Assembly: GCA_022827405.1 (NCBI GenBank)
Contig: JAJDTA010000196.1
Location: 1 to 64,000, forward strand
DNA length: 64,000 nt
Direction: 5' to 3'
From: Acidimicrobiia bacterium
Lineage (GTDB): Bacteria > Actinomycetota > Acidimicrobiia > Acidimicrobiales > Bin134
Below the pieces are notes generated by a model. The model worked only from the letters and a program-made list of their open reading frames with translations. It had not been told where the DNA came from and did no database searches. The translations under genes were made by a program, and so were the position numbers. This document shows positions 2,787 through 19,917 of the stretch, one piece after another (position 1 is the first letter of the stretch; the number at the start of each line of letters is the position of its first letter).

Positions 2787-3809
2787 AGACTGTTTTTGTT
2801 GGGCCACGGCCGTGGCGGCTGTGGTGTTTTGATAGTAGGCGGTTTCACAGTCGGCGGGGGTGGTGTACGTGTATCGGCCGGGCAGGAGTTGGCTGTGGCT
2901 GCGCCTGTGGTTGTACCAGTCGACGTATTCGAGGGTGGCGAACTCGACGTCGCTTTGCCCTTGCCATGGGCCGCGGGGGTAGATGAGCTCCCATTTGAAC
3001 AGGCCGTTGAAGCTCTCGATCATGGCGTTGTCGTAGCTGTCGCCCTTTGAGCCGACCGAGGCGGCGATGTCGTTGTCGTGGAGGCGCTCGGTGTAGCGGA
3101 CGGACACGTATTGCGATCCGCGGTCGCTGTGATGGGTCACCCCGTCGGTGCTGTGGCCGCCGCGCCGGCGGGCGGCGATGGCCATGTCCAAAGCGTCGAG
3201 CGCGAGGTCGGTGCGCAATGAGCGCGAAGCCTGCCAGCCCAGCACCCGCCGGGAGTAGGCGTCGATGACGAACGCCATGTACACCCAGCCGGAGCGGGTC
3301 CGCACCCAGGTGAGATCCGCGAGCCACAGCCGGTCTGGTGCGTCGGCGCCGAAGTCCCGCCCCACCAGGTCCTCGGGCAGGCCGCCGGCGGCAGGGGTGG
3401 TCGTTCGGGGGCCGGCGGCCCCGCTGGACGCCGCGCAGGCCCATCTGGGCCATCAGCCGCTCGACGGTGCAGCGGGCCACCCGCACGCCCTGCACGCGGT
3501 TGAGGTGCGCCTCACACCTTCGCCGCCCCGTAGACGTCGTAGTTCGCCCTGTGCGCTTTGGCGATCATCGGTCTCAGCTCGGCGCCGCGCGCATCTCTCG
3601 CCGACGGCACCCGCCTTTTGGCGGCGTAATAGGCAAACGGGGCGATCCCGACGCCGTGCTCTTGGAGCACCGCGCAGATCGGCCCGGCCCCCGAACCTGT
3701 GCCGGTGGGCGTCGATGAACGCCACTACGGCCTCCACTGGCGGTCGAGCTCCGCCCCGACCAAAGCCGACGCCGCCTTCAATATCGCGTTCGCCCGGCGC
3801 AGCCCGCAC
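2769..3809 (-). pseudogene. IS3-family OrfB transposase, broken by frameshifts
   Basis: LADLTWVRTRSGWVYMAFVIDAYSRRVLGW...HHSDRGSQY...SYDNAMIESFNG..K.E is intact in one frame. Upstream conserved parts (VARCTVERLMAQMGLRGVQRG; VEAVVAFIDAHRHRFG) lie in other frames. Confidence 0.85.
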
Positions 3810-5113: not shown

Positions 5114-5710
5114 CTATTTCCAAGGGTCTCGGAGGAAAGCCCCCTCTAGGGGGTGGACCCGCTCGCCGGGAACAATCAGGCCATCGGTTATCGTCACCCA
5201 CCGGCCGCTCATGTTGGCGACCCGGTTGGGCGGGCAGCCCAGGTGGTGCTCCAGGGTGTGGATAACCCCGCCGTGGGTGACCACCAGCGCAGACTGGTGT
5301 CCGACGATGCTGGCCAATCGGTGGAGGCCGGCCAACACTCGGGCCAACAGGTCGTCGTCTTGCTCCCAGCCCGATGGGCGGCGGCCGTCTTCCAGGAACC
5401 CGGGGTACCGCTCCTCGATCTGCGCCCGGGTCAATCCGGAGAACTCTCTAACATCCCGCTCGATCAACTCGGGGACCGGGATCGGCGGGTCGCAGCCCAG
5501 CGCTTCGGCAATGATCTCCGCGCTCACCCGGGATCGTTGAAGGGTGGACATGGCCACCACGTCGACCGGCTCGAGCCGGGCCGCGGCTTCGGCCGCCTGC
5601 CGGCGTCCCAACTCCGATAACGGGGGGTCGGCCTGGCCTTGCCAGCGCCGAGCCGCGTTCCACTCCGACTGCCCGTGTCGGATCAGAAGGAGACGAGCCA
5701 CGGCTGTCAC
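5114..5710 (-). CDS. Histidine phosphatase / phosphoglycerate mutase family protein
   Basis: LLLIRHGQSEWNAARRWQGQADPPLSELGRRQA..., VVTHGGVIHTL. Confidence 0.9.
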   Translation of the reverse strand: MTAVARLLLIRHGQSEWNAARRWQGQADPPLSELGRRQAAEAAARLEPVDVVAMSTLQRSRVSAEIIAEALGCDPPIPVPELIERDVREFSGLTRAQIEERYPGFLEDGRRPSGWEQDDDLLARVLAGLHRLASIVGHQSALVVTHGGVIHTLEHHLGCPPNRVANMSGRWVTITDGLIVPGERVHPLEGAFLRDPWK

Positions 5711-5771
5711 AATAATGGGCGGGGCCTTTCAGACTGCGGCAGTGGCAGAGTATTCCCGTACAATTCTGCCC

Positions 5772-6008
5772 ATGGCCACGCTGCGCCTGTTCGCACACGT
5801 CAGGGAGGCGGCGGGCACCGGACGAGACGAAGTCCCCGGCGCCACTGTCGACCAAGTACTGGCCACTGCGGTGGATCGCTATGGCGCGGCCTTTGCCGAA
5901 CAGCTTCAGATTTGCCGGGTGTGGCTGAACGGCGAGCCGGTTACCGGATCTGAGCCGGTCGCCGATGGCGATGAGGTGGCTGTGCTGCCCCCAGTGTCCG
6001 GGGGGTAG
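5772..6008 (+). CDS. MoaD/ThiS family sulfur carrier protein
   Basis: MATLRLFAHVREAAG...DGDEVAVLPPVSGG, ending in Gly-Gly. Confidence 0.85.
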   Translation: MATLRLFAHVREAAGTGRDEVPGATVDQVLATAVDRYGAAFAEQLQICRVWLNGEPVTGSEPVADGDEVAVLPPVSGG

Positions 6009-11944: not shown

Positions 11945-12805
11945 ATGCTGCGCGCCGCCACTCGGGGGAGCGTCTTGGCCCGGTGGCAAACCGCCCACAT
12001 CGCTGAACTATTGGGCCGCGCCGCCGATGTTGAGCCTCTGCTGGTGGCCACGTCGGGCGACCGATTGGCCGACGAGCCCATTTCGGCCATCGGCGGCAAG
12101 GGAGTCTTCGTCAAAGAAGTCCAAGCCGCAGTGCTGGACGGGCGAGCCGACATTGCCGTCCACTCGGCCAAGGATCTGCCAGCGGCCACCCCGGAGGGCC
12201 TAGTGCTGGCCGCGGTGCCCAACCGGGCCGATCCCCGAGACGTGCTGGTGGGCTGCCGTTTATCTGATCTTTCCCAGGGCGCATTGGTGGCCACCGGCTC
12301 AGCTCGCCGCCGAGTGCAGCTTCGCGAGTATCGCCCCGATCTTCGGTTCGCTGAGCTTCGTGGCAACATCGGCACTCGCCTGGCCAAGACGGCGGACTTT
12401 GACGGGATAGTCATGGCCAAGGCCGCCTTGGACCGCTTGGGCGAACACCCGGCGGTGGTGGATGTGCTGGGTTGCGAGGTCATGGTTCCTCAAGTGGGCC
12501 AGGGTGCCCTGGCGGTGGAGTGCCGAGAAGACGATCATCGGCTTCGCACATTGCTGGCCGCCATCGAAGACCCCATAACTCGCCGGGCGGTGGATGCTGA
12601 GCGGGCTTTTTTGACCACTTTGGGTGGCGACTGCACGCTGCCCGCCGGAGCCCACGCCCACGTTGAGGGCGACACGCTGGCTATGCGGGCTGTGCTGGCC
12701 GACGGGTCCGACGGCCGGTGCCACACCGTGGGGGGCGAAGGTGAAGACGGGGAGGCCCTGGGCCAGGAACTGGCCCGCCAGTTGCTGGATATGGTGGCCC
12801 GGTGA
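11945..12805 (+). CDS. hemC: Hydroxymethylbilane synthase
   Basis: LRAATRGSVLARWQT..., VHSAKDLPA, GGDCTLPAGAHA. Confidence 0.95.
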   Translation: MLRAATRGSVLARWQTAHIAELLGRAADVEPLLVATSGDRLADEPISAIGGKGVFVKEVQAAVLDGRADIAVHSAKDLPAATPEGLVLAAVPNRADPRDVLVGCRLSDLSQGALVATGSARRRVQLREYRPDLRFAELRGNIGTRLAKTADFDGIVMAKAALDRLGEHPAVVDVLGCEVMVPQVGQGALAVECREDDHRLRTLLAAIEDPITRRAVDAERAFLTTLGGDCTLPAGAHAHVEGDTLAMRAVLADGSDGRCHTVGGEGEDGEALGQELARQLLDMVAR

Positions 12806-14265
12806 CCGTCTATCTGGTTGGTGCCGGGCCGGGCGATCCCGCGCTTTTGACCCTGAGGGGGGCGGAGGTGCTGGCCAGCGCCGATGTGGTGGTGTACGAC
12901 CGGCTGTCGGTGACCTCGCTGCTCGATATGGCTCCGGCCGATGCCGAGCGCATCTCGGTGGGCAAACAGCCCGGCGGACCCCGTACCTCCCAAGCGGAGA
13001 TCAACTCCCTGCTGGTGGATCGGGGCCGGGCCGGACAGCTGGTGGTGCGCCTGAAGGGCGGAGACCCCTTTGTGTTCGCCCGAGGCGGTGAGGAGGCCGC
13101 TGCCCTGGCCGCGGCCGGCGTCGCCTTCGAAGTTGTCCCCGGCATCACCTCGGCGGTGGCGGTTCCCGCCTACGCCGGCATTCCCGTGACCATGCGCTAT
13201 TCCTCCACGTCGTTCACCGTGGTGACCGGCCACGAAGACCCGGCCAAGGGAGAAGGGTCGGTCAACTGGGAGGCGGTTGCCGCCCTCGGGGGCACGGTGG
13301 TGGTGCTCATGGGCGCGGCCCGCTGTCGCCCGATCTGCGACCGGCTGGTGGCTGCGGGTATGGCCCCCGACACGCCCGCAGCCGCGGTGCAGTGGGGGAC
13401 CCGCCCCAGCCAGCGCACGCTGCGGGCCACCCTGGCCACCTTGGCCGACATGGATCCCCAGCCGCCCGCCACCATCGTGGTCGGCGAAGTGGCCGCCGCC
13501 AATCTGGCCTGGTACGAGAACCGGCCCCTGTTCGGCCGCCGCATTGTGGTGACCCGGGCGCAGCCCCAGGCCGCGGGGCTGGCCGCTGAGCTTCACCGAA
13601 GGGGAGCGGAGGCCCTGGAGCTGCCGGTCATTGCCTTTGAGCCCCCTTACGACCTCGACCGCCTAGCCCAGGCCGCCGCCGAGGTTGGCAGCTATGACTG
13701 GTTGGTGCTCACCTCGCCCACCGGGGTGGTTCGATTCTTCGATCAGCTTCCCGACGCCCGCAGCCTCGGAGGCGTGAAGGTGGCCGCCATCGGGCCTGGT
13801 ACCGCGGCGGCGCTGGCCGAGCGCAACGTGGTGGCCGATCTGGTTCCCGAGCAGTACGTGGCCGAATCCCTGCTGGAAGCTCTGTCTGATGAGGTTGGTT
13901 CCGACTGGCCGGGACGGGTGCTCATCCCTCGGGCCGAAACCGCCCGCAACGTGCTGCCCGACGGACTCGCCGCCGCCGGATGGGACGTCGACGTGGTTCC
14001 CGCCTACCGAACCGTGGCACCCGCCCCCGACCCCGACGCGGCGGCCCTGGTGGCCGACGCCGAGGTCATAACCTTCACGTCGTCGTCCACCGTGACCAAC
14101 TTTGTGGACTCTTATGGCGCCGACATCGTGCCCGAGGTGGTGGCCACCATCGGCCCGATCACGTCCGAAACCGCTCGCAGTCTGGGCCTAGAGGTTGCGG
14201 TGGAGGCCTCCGAGCACACCGTCGACGGCCTGATCACCGCCTTGGAGGACTTCTTCACCCGCTGA
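12802..14265 (+). CDS. cobA-hemD: Uroporphyrinogen-III C-methyltransferase / uroporphyrinogen-III synthase fusion
   Basis: VYLVGAGPGDPALLTLRGAEVL..., LKGGDPFVFARGGEEA, then HemD-like C-terminal half. Confidence 0.93.
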   Translation: MTVYLVGAGPGDPALLTLRGAEVLASADVVVYDRLSVTSLLDMAPADAERISVGKQPGGPRTSQAEINSLLVDRGRAGQLVVRLKGGDPFVFARGGEEAAALAAAGVAFEVVPGITSAVAVPAYAGIPVTMRYSSTSFTVVTGHEDPAKGEGSVNWEAVAALGGTVVVLMGAARCRPICDRLVAAGMAPDTPAAAVQWGTRPSQRTLRATLATLADMDPQPPATIVVGEVAAANLAWYENRPLFGRRIVVTRAQPQAAGLAAELHRRGAEALELPVIAFEPPYDLDRLAQAAAEVGSYDWLVLTSPTGVVRFFDQLPDARSLGGVKVAAIGPGTAAALAERNVVADLVPEQYVAESLLEALSDEVGSDWPGRVLIPRAETARNVLPDGLAAAGWDVDVVPAYRTVAPAPDPDAAALVADAEVITFTSSSTVTNFVDSYGADIVPEVVATIGPITSETARSLGLEVAVEASEHTVDGLITALEDFFTR

Positions 14266-14427: not shown

Positions 14428-15369
14428 TCATCTGCGATTCCACTTATTTAGGACGTCAATTGTGCCTTCAAGCCACTGGCGTGCTCCTAATACAGTGCTG
14501 AACACCCTGCCGGTCTCGATTAGTACAGGGTCTGGATGCTTCCACCGAGGTTGGGTTCGGCAGTCGAGCAATGCCTCTATGGCTGATTCAATTTTTCGGC
14601 CGAGCGTCACGCCCTCGTCCAATAGGCCAATGATCTCCTGCCGGTTGGGTCTTTGGTTGATCCGTCGTGCCATTCGACGTGATGGCACGCTTCCGGTCCC
14701 TATCTCTGCGCAGGACTCCTCCACTCGGGCAATCGTTTCGGCGAAGTCGGTCATCCGGTTCATCAGCTTGCCAGCCGACATGCTGGTGCCGTCAAGTGTC
14801 TCTCCTTCAACTGTCCTTAGCGTCAACCACGCGGCACCCGTGAGAGGAGCCTTGAGGTACACGACAGGCATCCTCCGGTCAAACCAGACCTTCTCTAGAT
14901 CCGCGAGCCTCCCACCCATCTTCTCTCCGAGACCGAAGGCGGTTCTCCTTCTGAGCAAAGTCTGAACAGTGCCTGTCACGGTTCCAAATCCGTGTGATAT
15001 GCCGCGGCTATCCATTTCAGCGATCTCATCGACGGAGGGGAGGGGGACTTCCAAGAGGTCGTCAATGACTGGTGCAGAATTTGGATCAGGAAACAGGGGA
15101 ACCGGATCATACGAGACCGGTCCCAGTCCGCCCAGCCAGCCCAACAGCGCTTCGACGGTCGGTTCGATTGGCACTGTGTTCGTACCCAGCTCAGTGACGG
15201 GTCCAGATGCAACGTGTATCGAAAGGACCGGCAACTCCAGTTCTATACCCGGAAATGCATGGGCTCGCTCAAGGAGTGCGTATGTCATCGTGTGCCTTTC
15301 GTCAACCTGGCTGGCTAAGGGGACAACGTAACAGCTAGTAATACCCAGTGGGGGTTTGGCATATCCCAA
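14428..15369 (-). CDS. Hypothetical protein downstream of the KAP NTPase
   Basis: 313-aa ORF (internal MTYALLERAH... start possible near 15288). No family recognised. Confidence 0.6.
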   Translation of the reverse strand: MGYAKPPLGITSCYVVPLASQVDERHTMTYALLERAHAFPGIELELPVLSIHVASGPVTELGTNTVPIEPTVEALLGWLGGLGPVSYDPVPLFPDPNSAPVIDDLLEVPLPSVDEIAEMDSRGISHGFGTVTGTVQTLLRRRTAFGLGEKMGGRLADLEKVWFDRRMPVVYLKAPLTGAAWLTLRTVEGETLDGTSMSAGKLMNRMTDFAETIARVEESCAEIGTGSVPSRRMARRINQRPNRQEIIGLLDEGVTLGRKIESAIEALLDCRTQPRWKHPDPVLIETGRVFSTVLGARQWLEGTIDVLNKWNRR

Positions 15370-15419: not shown

Positions 15420-16829
15420 CTAATGGGCAGTGAGATCGATTATCCCGAAGAGTTCGTCGAGTCTCAACGTTGACGTTGGCTGTTCTCCAAGCCGTGTGTC
15501 GGTTGCTGCGAGAATCTTGCTGGCACGGATGCCAGCGGCGTCGGTTGCGTCTGGTGTGTCTTCGAATGCTGCGGCAAAGGCACTTGCGTATTGCCGCTCG
15601 AAAACGGAGTGAGCGCTGTTACCTTCAAGAACTGACGTTGATGACATCAAGAGGACATCGAGCGATTCAGCGAGGAGGGAGGCCTCTATCTTTTCGTGGG
15701 CCTTGTCCCAGGTCGAGATGTCGGCGAGCGTTTGAGGATCGTCGGTGATAGCTCGGTTCATTGTTGCGACCGCGGTGAATGGGTCTCCCTTGTTGGCGAG
15801 GTGTTGATAGGACGTCATGTCGAGTGTCCTGAGGACGATCAAAGCTGCTGCCTTTTGCTTTGATGCCCAGCTGTCGCCAGCGGTGCCTTGGCGGATCTTG
15901 GCTGATTGCAAGGAGACGGCTGTGAGGTGGAGCGCTTGTTGTAGGTCCCTGAGGTTGTGTCTGCTGGCCGCGGCAATCGTTTGGAGCATCAAAGGGCTGT
16001 AGTCCGGCACGTCGCTTCCGCCGATCATGGTGACGAGCCGGGAATCCAGACCAAGGTTGGCTAGGAGTTCATTCGTGAAGGCCGCGAGGTGGTCTGTGGC
16101 AGGAAGGGATAGCGCGTAGGGCAGGTCAGTGAAGCGACGAAGGTATCGGTCGGCGTCGAATCGGGGACCGTAGAGGATCCGAATTGAGTGGCACAGTTCT
16201 TCTCGGTTTAGGGCGAGTAATACCACCACACCGTCGACAGCGAAGAGATGACGGTCAGTTTCGATGAGGGCAAGGGCGTAGTTGGGCCGGCATCGGTCTA
16301 GTTCGTCGATGAGCACTATGAGCCGCCCTGGCCCAGGACCGGGGGACTTTGTGGCAGCCTGGGCGAGGGCGTCTTTGAATTCTCCCACTTTGGTGCTGGC
16401 TTCGTGCCAAGGGTCGAAGGTCTCCCACCTCTTGCGCCTTATGGCGTCCCGGTCGATCACCCCGCGAGAGCCAATCTTGGCCAAGTGGAGGCTGATGTCG
16501 ATCAGGGTCTTCTTGAGTTTCTTGGATTTGTTGCCGCCCAGTTCTGAGGCGATAGCTGACACAAGATCTACCAGCGGGTTCTCGGTGTAGCTCTGCTGCC
16601 AGGCATTGAAATCGACTACGCGGGTGCCGCGGCGGCGGAGTTCAGCCGAGCACATTGCTACAAAAGCAGTCTTTCCTGACCCCCAAGGACCGTCGATTGA
16701 GACGACGGCATGACCAGCGGCGTTCTGCATGATGTCGCACAAGGCGTTGATCTGCGAGGCACGACCCAGCAGGTCGTGAACGTAGGGATCGTCGGGTGTT
16801 GCTGTGAACTCCTCGGGGTTTAAGCGCAT
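15420..16829 (-). CDS. KAP-family P-loop NTPase
   Basis: Walker A GPWGSGKTAF, VDFNAWQQ, Walker B LIVLIDELDRCRPNYALALIE, LALNREELCHSI. Confidence 0.9.
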   Translation of the reverse strand: MRLNPEEFTATPDDPYVHDLLGRASQINALCDIMQNAAGHAVVSIDGPWGSGKTAFVAMCSAELRRRGTRVVDFNAWQQSYTENPLVDLVSAIASELGGNKSKKLKKTLIDISLHLAKIGSRGVIDRDAIRRKRWETFDPWHEASTKVGEFKDALAQAATKSPGPGPGRLIVLIDELDRCRPNYALALIETDRHLFAVDGVVVLLALNREELCHSIRILYGPRFDADRYLRRFTDLPYALSLPATDHLAAFTNELLANLGLDSRLVTMIGGSDVPDYSPLMLQTIAAASRHNLRDLQQALHLTAVSLQSAKIRQGTAGDSWASKQKAAALIVLRTLDMTSYQHLANKGDPFTAVATMNRAITDDPQTLADISTWDKAHEKIEASLLAESLDVLLMSSTSVLEGNSAHSVFERQYASAFAAAFEDTPDATDAAGIRASKILAATDTRLGEQPTSTLRLDELFGIIDLTAH

Positions 16830-16993: not shown

Positions 16994-17113
16994 GCGCTCT
17001 ATTCCTGTTCTATTCGAGGGGGGTGTATCAAAAAGCGGCGTGTGCTTGACCAGGGGTTTCGTGTTTTCGGCCCCCTGCTAACCCTCTATTCGCGCTCTAT
17101 TCGCGCTCTTTTA
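16994..17113. promoter_or_regulatory. Iteron element A, upstream of the KAP operon
   Basis: TCTATTC cores at 16998, 17009 and 17085, 17096, with degenerate 17107 (11-bp period). Hairpin CAGGGG/CCCCTG lies between the groups. Confidence 0.85.
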
Positions 17114-18509
17114 GGGAGTTGCTGAGGGTCCAGTATGCACCTCGGCCGTGGCCCTCGACGCGGACAAGACCGAGTTCGCGCAATCGCGCGAGCGCCCCTC
17201 GTGCCGCAGAATCGCTGATTCCTGCCTGGGCTGCGAGGTCTCCACGCCCCACAGGACCGTTCGCAAGTCGGGCCAGCATGGTGGCCTCTGGATCGCTAAT
17301 CACGAGAACTGATCCGTCGGGTGCCAGCCATTTACCCTGTCGCGGCACACTGCACGTCACCGATGCACCGGTTGTCGTGAATACCGGCCGACCCAATCCG
17401 GCTTCTGAACATATCCTCGCCATTCGAAGGGTTCCTGACCCGAGTTGCTCGACGATGCCGCGTCGGTACAGACAGCCCATCATGTTCGGATTCCACGGGT
17501 GCGAGCCGTGATTCACATATAGGTCGGAGGGCGTGAGCCCAAAAGGAAGTCCACCAGGAGACAGCACTTCCAGCCGGTCGGAGAACACCCGCACCTGAAC
17601 CAGTCCGGCTGTTGCGTAGTTGCGATGGCTGAAGGCGTTGGCCAGAGCTTCCCGTATAACCGCAGACGGGATCTCCAGACCTGCCCCGGCTTGGAGACCG
17701 CCATTAATGCGTACGGGGTGGTGCAGGTGATCTTCGCAGAATGACATTGCCCTTCTAAGTGAGGTGAAGACGTTGTCCACAATAAGAAGGTCGTCGCGGA
17801 ATTCCTCGCCGATTTGAGTGTCAGTCACCGCCACTAGCCGGCATCCCAGCGTTGGGAAGTGGCTCCCGAATGCCTCAGGGCGACCAAACAGGGCAACAGC
17901 AGCCCGATTCGGGTTGTTGTCACGATCAAGCAGGTTCATGGCTCGAAGAACATCGACAACCGAGGCATTGGTATCAAAATTGCCACGCCCAGCGGTGATG
18001 GCTTCGTCTCGAAAGGCGCGGACCTCGACCTCGTCAATGGCATCGAAACCGCGTTGGGAATCTGCGGTCTCCCACCGGTCCCACCCGTGGGCTCGCTCGA
18101 GAACGAGCGAAAGTTGTATTTCGTCGGGCATTTCAACCGTTGACGCCCCTGATCGCTGGTAGTAGCGGCCCTTGTAGGAATAAGGCTTGCTCGCGCCGAC
18201 GCCGACGGTGACGACGAGAACCTCATGGTCCTCTCTATCGGGCACGGATATGCGCTCGATTGACGGTGGGTACCGGGGGTGGATTTCCTCGCATGCCTGG
18301 GTGATGTTCTCTAGTGTCCTGTCTGCCACGTTCTGACCAGTGACACGTCCGTCGGGATGCACTCCGAAGAGCACGCTGCCCCCTTGTCCATTGAGCATCG
18401 CCGACAAGGCTTTTGCAGCTGATTTTCGCTCACCTGTCGTCTTCTTGAACTCGACGGTCTCAGACTCGCCACCCTCAGCGAGGTCACAGATTTCGCCGAC
18501 GGTGGTCAC
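17097..18509 (-). CDS. Schlafen/AlbA_2-type DNA-binding domain with GHKL-type ATPase and wHTH
   Basis: EGGESETVEFKKT...SAMLNGQGGSVLFGVHPDGRVTGQ..., IREALANAFSHRNYATAGLVQVRVFSDRLEVLSPGGLP, C-terminal winged-helix-like segment. Confidence 0.88.
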   Translation of the reverse strand: MTTVGEICDLAEGGESETVEFKKTTGERKSAAKALSAMLNGQGGSVLFGVHPDGRVTGQNVADRTLENITQACEEIHPRYPPSIERISVPDREDHEVLVVTVGVGASKPYSYKGRYYQRSGASTVEMPDEIQLSLVLERAHGWDRWETADSQRGFDAIDEVEVRAFRDEAITAGRGNFDTNASVVDVLRAMNLLDRDNNPNRAAVALFGRPEAFGSHFPTLGCRLVAVTDTQIGEEFRDDLLIVDNVFTSLRRAMSFCEDHLHHPVRINGGLQAGAGLEIPSAVIREALANAFSHRNYATAGLVQVRVFSDRLEVLSPGGLPFGLTPSDLYVNHGSHPWNPNMMGCLYRRGIVEQLGSGTLRMARICSEAGLGRPVFTTTGASVTCSVPRQGKWLAPDGSVLVISDPEATMLARLANGPVGRGDLAAQAGISDSAARGALARLRELGLVRVEGHGRGAYWTLSNSLKERE

Positions 18510-18517
18510 GGCTTCAG

Positions 18518-18636
18518 TCTATTCCTGCTCTATTGGAGGGGATGTCTCAGCAAGCTGCATTCGGCTGACCTGGGACTTCGCGAGATAGCGAATTTTGGGT
18601 CCCGCTATTCGCGCTCTATTCTCGCTCTAATCGGGG
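18518..18636. promoter_or_regulatory. Iteron element B, upstream of the Schlafen-type gene
   Basis: TCTATTC-type cores at 18518, 18529 and 18604, 18615, 18626 (11-bp period). Inverted repeat GGGAC/GTCCC with inner TTCGC/GCGAA. Confidence 0.85.
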
Positions 18637-18663
18637 GCGGGTGGGATAGTTAGGATCGCAGGC

Positions 18664-19917
18664 ATGGTCACGAACCGGGGTTTGTTCGAGCGGGCGAAGC
18701 GGGTCATCCCCGGCGGGGTCAACTCACCGGTGCGCTCGTTTCGGTCGGTGGGAGGCACCCCGTACTTCGTGGCTCGGGCCGAGGGGCCCTACGTGTGGGA
18801 CGTGGAGGGGCGCCGCTACATCGACTACGTGCAGAGCTACGGCCCCGGCATCTTGGGCCATGCCCATCCGGCGGTGACCGAGGCAGTGGCCAAGGCCGCG
18901 GCCGACGGGACCAGCTACGGGGCGCCCACCGAGCGCGAGGTGCTGCTGGCCGAGCTGCTGTGCGACCGGGTGCCGGGCATGGACTGGACCCGGCTCACCT
19001 CTAGCGGCACCGAGGCGGCCATGGCCGCCATACGCCTGGCTCGGGGGGCCACTGGCCGCACAAAGATCATCAAGTTCGCCGGCTGTTACCACGGCCACAG
19101 CGACGCGCTGTTGGCCGCGGGAGGAAGCGGGGTGGCCAACCAGGGGCTGGCCGACTCGGCAGGGGTTACTCCCGGAGCGGTGGCCGACACCGTGGTGGCG
19201 CCCTACAACCAGATCCCCGCGGTGGACGAAGACGTGGCCGCGGTGGTGGTAGAGCCGGTGGCGGCCAACATGGGGGTGGTGGCCCCGGTACCTGGTTTTC
19301 TGGAGGGGCTGCGGGCGGCCTGCGACCAGGCAGGTGCCCTGCTGGTGTTCGACGAGGTCATCACCGGCTTCCGCTTGGCTCCCGGCGGGGCCACCGAGTG
19401 GTTCGGCGTGACCCCCGACATTTGGTGCTTCGGCAAGGTGGTGGGTGGCGGTCTGCCCATCGGGGTATTCGGCGGGGGAACCGATCTCATGGAGCATCTG
19501 GCTCCGCTGGGCGGCGTGTACCAGGCCGGCACCCTGTCGGGTAACCCGCTGGCCACCGCGGCCGGCTTGGCCACCCTGGAACAGCTCACCCCTGACGCCT
19601 ACCGCACGCTGGCCGACACGGCGACCCGACTGGCCGACGGCATGGCCGCGGCCGCCACCGCCGCGGGGGCGGTCTGCACCGTGCCCCGGGTGGGGTCACT
19701 GTTAGGGGTGTTCTTCTGCGACGAAGCTCCCACCGACTTCGACCAAGCCAAGGCCGCGGCTGAAAACGGCGTCTACCCCCGGGTGTTCCACGCCCTCCTC
19801 GAATCCGGCGTGGCCTTCGCCCCCGGCCCCTACGAGGCTCTGTTCCCCAGCTTGGCCCACACCGACGACCACGTCGACACCACGGTGGACGCCTTCGCCG
19901 CTGCTGTGGAGCAGTAG
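18664..19917 (+). CDS. hemL: Glutamate-1-semialdehyde 2,1-aminomutase
   Basis: RAKRVIPGGVNSPVRSFRSVGGTPYFV..., LLVFDEVITGFRLAPGGATEWFGVTPDIWCFGKVVGGGLPIG. Confidence 0.96.
   Translation: MVTNRGLFERAKRVIPGGVNSPVRSFRSVGGTPYFVARAEGPYVWDVEGRRYIDYVQSYGPGILGHAHPAVTEAVAKAAADGTSYGAPTEREVLLAELLCDRVPGMDWTRLTSSGTEAAMAAIRLARGATGRTKIIKFAGCYHGHSDALLAAGGSGVANQGLADSAGVTPGAVADTVVAPYNQIPAVDEDVAAVVVEPVAANMGVVAPVPGFLEGLRAACDQAGALLVFDEVITGFRLAPGGATEWFGVTPDIWCFGKVVGGGLPIGVFGGGTDLMEHLAPLGGVYQAGTLSGNPLATAAGLATLEQLTPDAYRTLADTATRLADGMAAAATAAGAVCTVPRVGSLLGVFFCDEAPTDFDQAKAAAENGVYPRVFHALLESGVAFAPGPYEALFPSLAHTDDHVDTTVDAFAAAVEQ

Follow-up and report, generated by a model that had tools for sequence, protein, structure and literature searches.

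Paired iteron elements around a Schlafen-type gene of an Acidimicrobiia bacterium, possible boundaries of exchangeable defence genes

The DNA analysed here, a stretch of 64,000 nucleotides hereafter called the window, comes from a sponge-associated actinobacterium. In this stretch, a minus-strand group of genes comprising an orphan of 313 amino acids, a KAP NTPase, and a Schlafen-type gene encoding 470 amino acids lies between hemL and a gene that is presumably of the cobA/hemD type (Table 1). The orphan is a possible partner of the KAP protein. The Schlafen-type protein displays the AlbA_2, HATPase_c_4, and winged-helix combination of the prokaryotic Schlafen effectors; the Pfam matches are PF04326 (3e-21) and PF13749 (9e-17), and the winged-helix match, to MarR_2 (4e-5), is below the Pfam cut-off. 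The same domain order is found in described Schlafen RNases (PMC12839542). That the gene came from a plasmid or a phage was considered and rejected, as both collections gave distant homologues only (26-33% identity).

Table 1. Genes and sequence features at the hemD-hemL locus of the window.
Feature	Position	Strand	Remarks
cobA/hemD-type gene (presumed)	12802..14265	+	Left chromosomal neighbour
Uncharacterised ORF	14428..15369	-	313 aa; follows KAP; matches nothing in Pfam or PADLOC
KAP NTPase	15420..16829	-	PADLOC PDC-S20; neighbour; not present at the corresponding locus in G009 and G004
Element A	16998..17117	+	Iterons 16998, 17009 / 17085, 17096, 17107; core TGACCAGGGGTTTCG at about 17047-17061
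Schlafen-type gene	17097..18509	-	Bracketed cargo; 470 aa; SLFN_AlbA_2, HATPase_c_4, MarR-like winged helix
-10-like TAGACT, GAAGCC, GTG start	18510..18524	-	Possible leaderless promoter of the Schlafen gene, sharing bases with iteron 1 of B, as judged from the sequence
Element B	18518..18637	+	Iterons 18518, 18529 / 18604, 18615, 18626; core TGACCTGGGACTTCG at about 18566-18580
hemL	18664..19917	+	Right chromosomal neighbour; aminotransferase class III (Pfam 2e-75)

The Schlafen-type gene is bracketed by two elements, A and B, which are direct repeats of about 120 bp, each composed of two 11-bp iterons, a core-bearing gap, and three further iterons. These repeats and their shared architecture had been described in an earlier note, and a re-check of the sequence found all ten iterons at the positions given there. 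The likeness of the two copies was confirmed by sequence comparison (70% identity over 112 bp, E 6e-6), and the distance of 75-76 bp claimed between the arrays was borne out (76 bp in A, 75 bp in B), as was the overlap of A with the end of the Schlafen-type gene. Four iterons are degenerate (17107 TCTTTTA, 18529 TCTATTG, 18604 GCTATTC, and 18626 TCTAATC), and the gap of both elements contains the core TGACC(T/A)GGG..TTCG. CTATT pairs 11 bp apart occur four times in the window; in 200 dinucleotide shuffles they averaged 0.01 and never exceeded one, and chance does not account for the iteron architecture. When two mismatches are allowed, the single iteron pattern is no more frequent than expected by chance; the significance resides in the overall architecture and not in the lone iteron. 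Searches of the host genome found A and B and no third copy. The element is real and conserved, and the spacing of one helical turn pointed out in the note is supported. The inverted repeats listed there (CAGGGG/CCCCTG in A, and GGGAC/GTCCC with an inner TTCGC/GCGAA in B) are present, but weak and not conserved in related elements.

The comparison used one representative genome per species (genomes are denoted G, loci L). Other Acidimicrobiia have orthologs of the Schlafen-type gene, with 55-65% identity, elsewhere in the genome, and most of these are accompanied by the element; the absence of arrays from homologous loci, which the note had named as evidence against its reading, was thus not observed. 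The gene lies between two copies of the site in the window and at seven other loci (G009, G004, G262, G149, L046, L039, and L058), and the bracketed ortholog occupies different chromosomal sites: hemD-hemL, CMD-PRT, and a position beside an N6 methylase. Every element at a Schlafen gene has one orientation, antisense to the gene. Relative to the stop codon, A starts at -21 to +13 bp (seven loci measured), while B is 8, 8, 19, 75, 78, or 112 bp from the start of the gene (six loci measured), the distances of 75-112 bp being those of G262, G149, and L058. Inspection by eye indicated a C-run and iteron-like repeats close after the stop codon at L041, L045, L046, L039, L044, and L047, weakly so at L047, and an ambiguous pattern at L042. 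B is missing or decayed at L041, L042, L043, L045, and L047. At L058, a phosphoribosyltransferase gene (3176-3682) precedes B, and an internally deleted remnant of this gene, about 190 bp long, follows A at about 5550-5800.

According to the earlier note, A and B look like operators that join the Schlafen and KAP genes in one regulon. In the sister species G009 and G004 the Schlafen gene is found at the same site with both elements present, and the KAP operon is absent; A is here situated between the convergent 3' ends of the hemD-type and Schlafen genes. This rules A out as an ancestral KAP operator, and a regulon shared with the KAP genes is not supported. What stands of the operator reading is that the element is conserved and that B probably is the promoter region of the Schlafen gene in this genus; a scan for consensus sigma-70 promoters gave no match in A or B. 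The stretch behind the hemD stop codon is common to the window and G009, and the KAP genes of the window thus lie between that stretch and A. In 17 other members of the genus hemD is found beside hemL with a gap of 40-114 bp, and no solo element was found at the empty sites of these 17 relatives. A different insert separates hemD and hemL in G011 (L123). In G007 (L129), no hemD lies in the 1.5 kb around hemL. The sequences between the two genes in L123 and upstream of hemL in L129 are other ones, and the gap may be an insertion hotspot.

Comparison of 26 elements showed sequence conservation in the iterons and in the core TGACC(T)GSGGTTT(C/T)G. The left gap and the spacer vary in sequence but hardly in length. 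The left gap is 0.82 identical within a locus versus 0.38 between loci, and the corresponding values for the spacer are 0.70 and 0.28. In the tree, A is the sister of B in each of G004, G009, G149, and G262. Exceptions to this within-locus likeness are the window's own pair, which is 0.66 identical overall with spacers that are 30% identical, and the close relatives L046/L039, where A groups with A and B with B. The A and B spacers of G009 are 57% identical. Since the spacers differ in this manner at several loci, ordinary exchange by a tyrosine recombinase would be blocked. A conserved inverted repeat as the core was tried and rejected; inverted repeats in the spacer give a weak combined signal above shuffles and are absent at many loci.

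The element is also found beside other genes. The order was searched with a sequence-only model in a genome draw of the same size, using a threshold of E 1e-40 for Schlafen orthologs. Six genomes had the element and no such ortholog; it is substantial in G118, G224, G244, and G329, and a weak partial one in G130 and G280. G244 has two direct copies at a distance of 6.6 kb, located around DndB (PF14072, 2e-90) and a UG23-like reverse transcriptase. Two tandem copies in G118 adjoin a DUF4411 gene and one similar to IrrE/RmrA (PIN/IrrE). One copy in G329 adjoins an MNT gene (PDC-S09) in a region with SspC- and SspE-like genes. As unrelated defence genes adjoin the element in these genomes, which gave no Schlafen ortholog, the Schlafen-type protein of the window is unnecessary for the presence of the element. 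One copy each, beside an AAA ATPase and HmaA, was also obtained from G601 and G664, which belong to a different order within the class. In a control for proximity to defence genes, three of ten control proteins matched PADLOC, the control set being small, biased, and made up of weak element matches. By eye, the tandem elements of G118 seem to split an alpha/beta-hydrolase gene (L180:384-938) that in G224 is located behind the element.

The CMD-PRT locus of one genus, which adjoins an Ssp system, exists in several states. It is empty in G120 and G177, holds the element and an MNT gene in G329, is occupied by element-Schlafen-element in G690/G402, and has tandem elements followed by the Schlafen gene in G689 and G691/G401. 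Together with G244, G118, and the hemD-hemL gaps, these states show that the cargo beside the element varies and that the location can be empty in related genomes. At the G329 locus (L179, G329:C94), SspC-/SspE-like genes are found on both sides of CMD-element-MNT-PRT, and a cysteine desulfurase gene is nearby.

The reading we prefer, and to which we give an even chance, is that A and B are cassette boundaries, sites of a recombination type that mark exchangeable defence genes. Two copies of a conserved site for nucleoprotein assembly would mark the edges of the cassette. The mobile unit would be one gene, here the Schlafen-type effector, with the element just behind its stop codon, and its insertion beside a second copy would place the gene between two directly oriented elements. 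With both iteron arrays occupied on one face of the DNA, the bound proteins could bring the core into a complex, which would permit recombination between copies and exchange of one gene together with its 3' site. The bracket, its conservation, the varied chromosomal sites and genes, the empty sites, and the likeness of the copies at most loci are observed; that a recombinase acts on the element, and that genes are gained, lost, or swapped by recombination there, we infer. Several findings count against a cassette. No recombinase gene is encoded within it, the copy number is low (1-4 per genome), and both copies have both arms, unlike attL and attR in integration of the lambda type. The differing spacers of A and B, the lack of a solo element at the empty hemD-hemL sites, and the single copies of G601 and G664 point in the same direction. 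The solo element at CMD-PRT in G329 could be the result of old decay.

The main rival is a pair of operators, where a regulator, possibly the Schlafen protein acting through its C-terminal winged helix, would bind the iterons cooperatively, B serving self-repression and A loop formation or control of a neighbour. The 11-bp spacing on one DNA face and the winged-helix similarity of the Schlafen protein fit such a role, and iteron 1 of B coincides with a -10-like box 6 nt before the GTG in three species of the genus (TAGACT in the window and G009, TACACT in G004). Co-evolution with a single binder would likewise keep A and B alike. Even so, we find this explanation rather unlikely. The constant spacing to a promoter that an autoregulated operator should have is seen in the window's genus only, the distance from B to the gene start being 8-112 bp across loci. 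Operators are also hard to reconcile with the location of A between converging 3' ends in the two sister species, with the distance of B from the gene in G262, G149, and L058, and with elements in genomes that gave no Schlafen ortholog. In G009 and G004, moreover, the identity of the DNA outside the motifs is close to perfect, which is more than an operator requires. A promoter role is at the same time compatible with a cassette site, because res/irs sites of the Tn3 family also hold promoters (PMC7157771).

Functionless repeats, generated as duplications by homologous or illegitimate recombination and kept alike through gene conversion, would also give a bracketed gene. Conversion is feasible for repeats 1.4 kb apart, and distant homologues have other long direct repeats (duplicated hsdR 5' ends in L051-L053, 63 bp in L079). 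What makes such an origin improbable is a pattern unexpected for passive repeats: across families, conservation is seen in iterons and core and not in gap and spacer, and the lengths stay near constant. It is even harder to believe in an element that works at the RNA level, be it a 3'-UTR signal, a terminator, or an RNA similar to type III antitoxins. The fixed place just behind the stop codon and the hairpins found now and then in the spacer would agree with an RNA, but the iterons are spaced by the turn of DNA, no Rfam family scored above the cut-off, and most of the eight elements folded did not do so clearly better than shuffles, the exceptions being G262_B (z -3.0) and the window's own B (z -1.9).

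In integrons, a cassette is a single gene with attC at its 3' end, and a second site is found on the other side once it is inserted. The attC site is a folded palindrome used by IntI. The cassettes proposed here are similar in that a single gene with a 3' site is flanked by a second site; the element differs in being non-palindromic, its inverted repeats being weak and unconserved, and in not being arrayed behind an integrase. Tentatively, the element may represent a previously undescribed family of recombination sites (11-bp iterons, a TGACCTGSGG core, and 11-bp iterons) that builds single-gene defence cassettes in Acidimicrobiia in an integron-like manner with a putative recombinase. Acinetobacter dif (pdif) modules also contain one or a few genes, often encoding toxin-antitoxin systems, bracketed by short XerC/XerD sites and shuffled among replicons (PMC13141974). 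However, pdif sites are 28 bp long and inversely oriented with a 6-bp spacer, while the elements described here are about 120 bp, direct, iteron-based, and chromosomal. The irs of Tn4430 and Tn5401 and other Tn3-family res sites share the combination of a core and accessory direct repeats, and toxin-antitoxin genes cluster beside res (PMC7157771). In contrast to these, the present locus has no transposase, resolvase, or terminal inverted repeats, and both copies flank the cargo.

Grouped direct repeats of about 11 bp are also known from parC, the ParR-bound centromere of plasmid R1, where ParR needs at least two 11-bp repeats and, going by a title cited in the source, ten repeats flank the promoter (PMC9426499). 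The elements differ by their 2+3 repeats, chromosomal location, and conserved core in the gap, and no ParR or ParM genes were found among the scanned genes adjoining them. The bracketed gene itself is akin in domain order to the Schlafen-mHK-wHTH RNases found in BREX and further defence loci; the available part of that work mentions no flanking iteron element (PMC12839542), and no BREX core gene was recognised alongside the gene in the window.

For the question of how bacterial chromosomes collect and exchange defence genes, a conserved site around a Schlafen-type gene and, in related genomes, beside MNT, reverse transcriptase, and Hma genes would offer a direct handle, and would serve as a sequence tag for more defence genes in little-known sponge-associated bacteria. 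If the elements are operators instead, they would constitute an unusual paired operator extending to the stop codon of the gene.

The core is also encountered without iterons. In G130 (L149/L189) it lies just 3' of a tRNA-Val gene and next to a tyrosine integrase, and a lead from such sequence contexts is that it may be used by the machinery of mobile elements. The motif CRAAACCSCAGGTCAG without iterons was noted near a tRNA-Leu in G405 (L178) and beside genes that by eye were named transposase-like. In G402 (L188/L195), CRAAACCSCAGGTCAG is found inside an inverted-repeat element of about 100 bp with CAGGCTGCTGAAAAAGT ends, and further lone cores are present at L190, L193, and L174. As for distant Schlafen homologues, those of L051, L052, and L053, from three other phyla, lie between direct repeats of 118-204 bp, which in L051 and L053 resemble copies of the hsdR 5' end (HSDR_N was confirmed in L053), and in Rhodoferax (L079:3932-5512) the direct repeats of 63 bp are found immediately around the gene.
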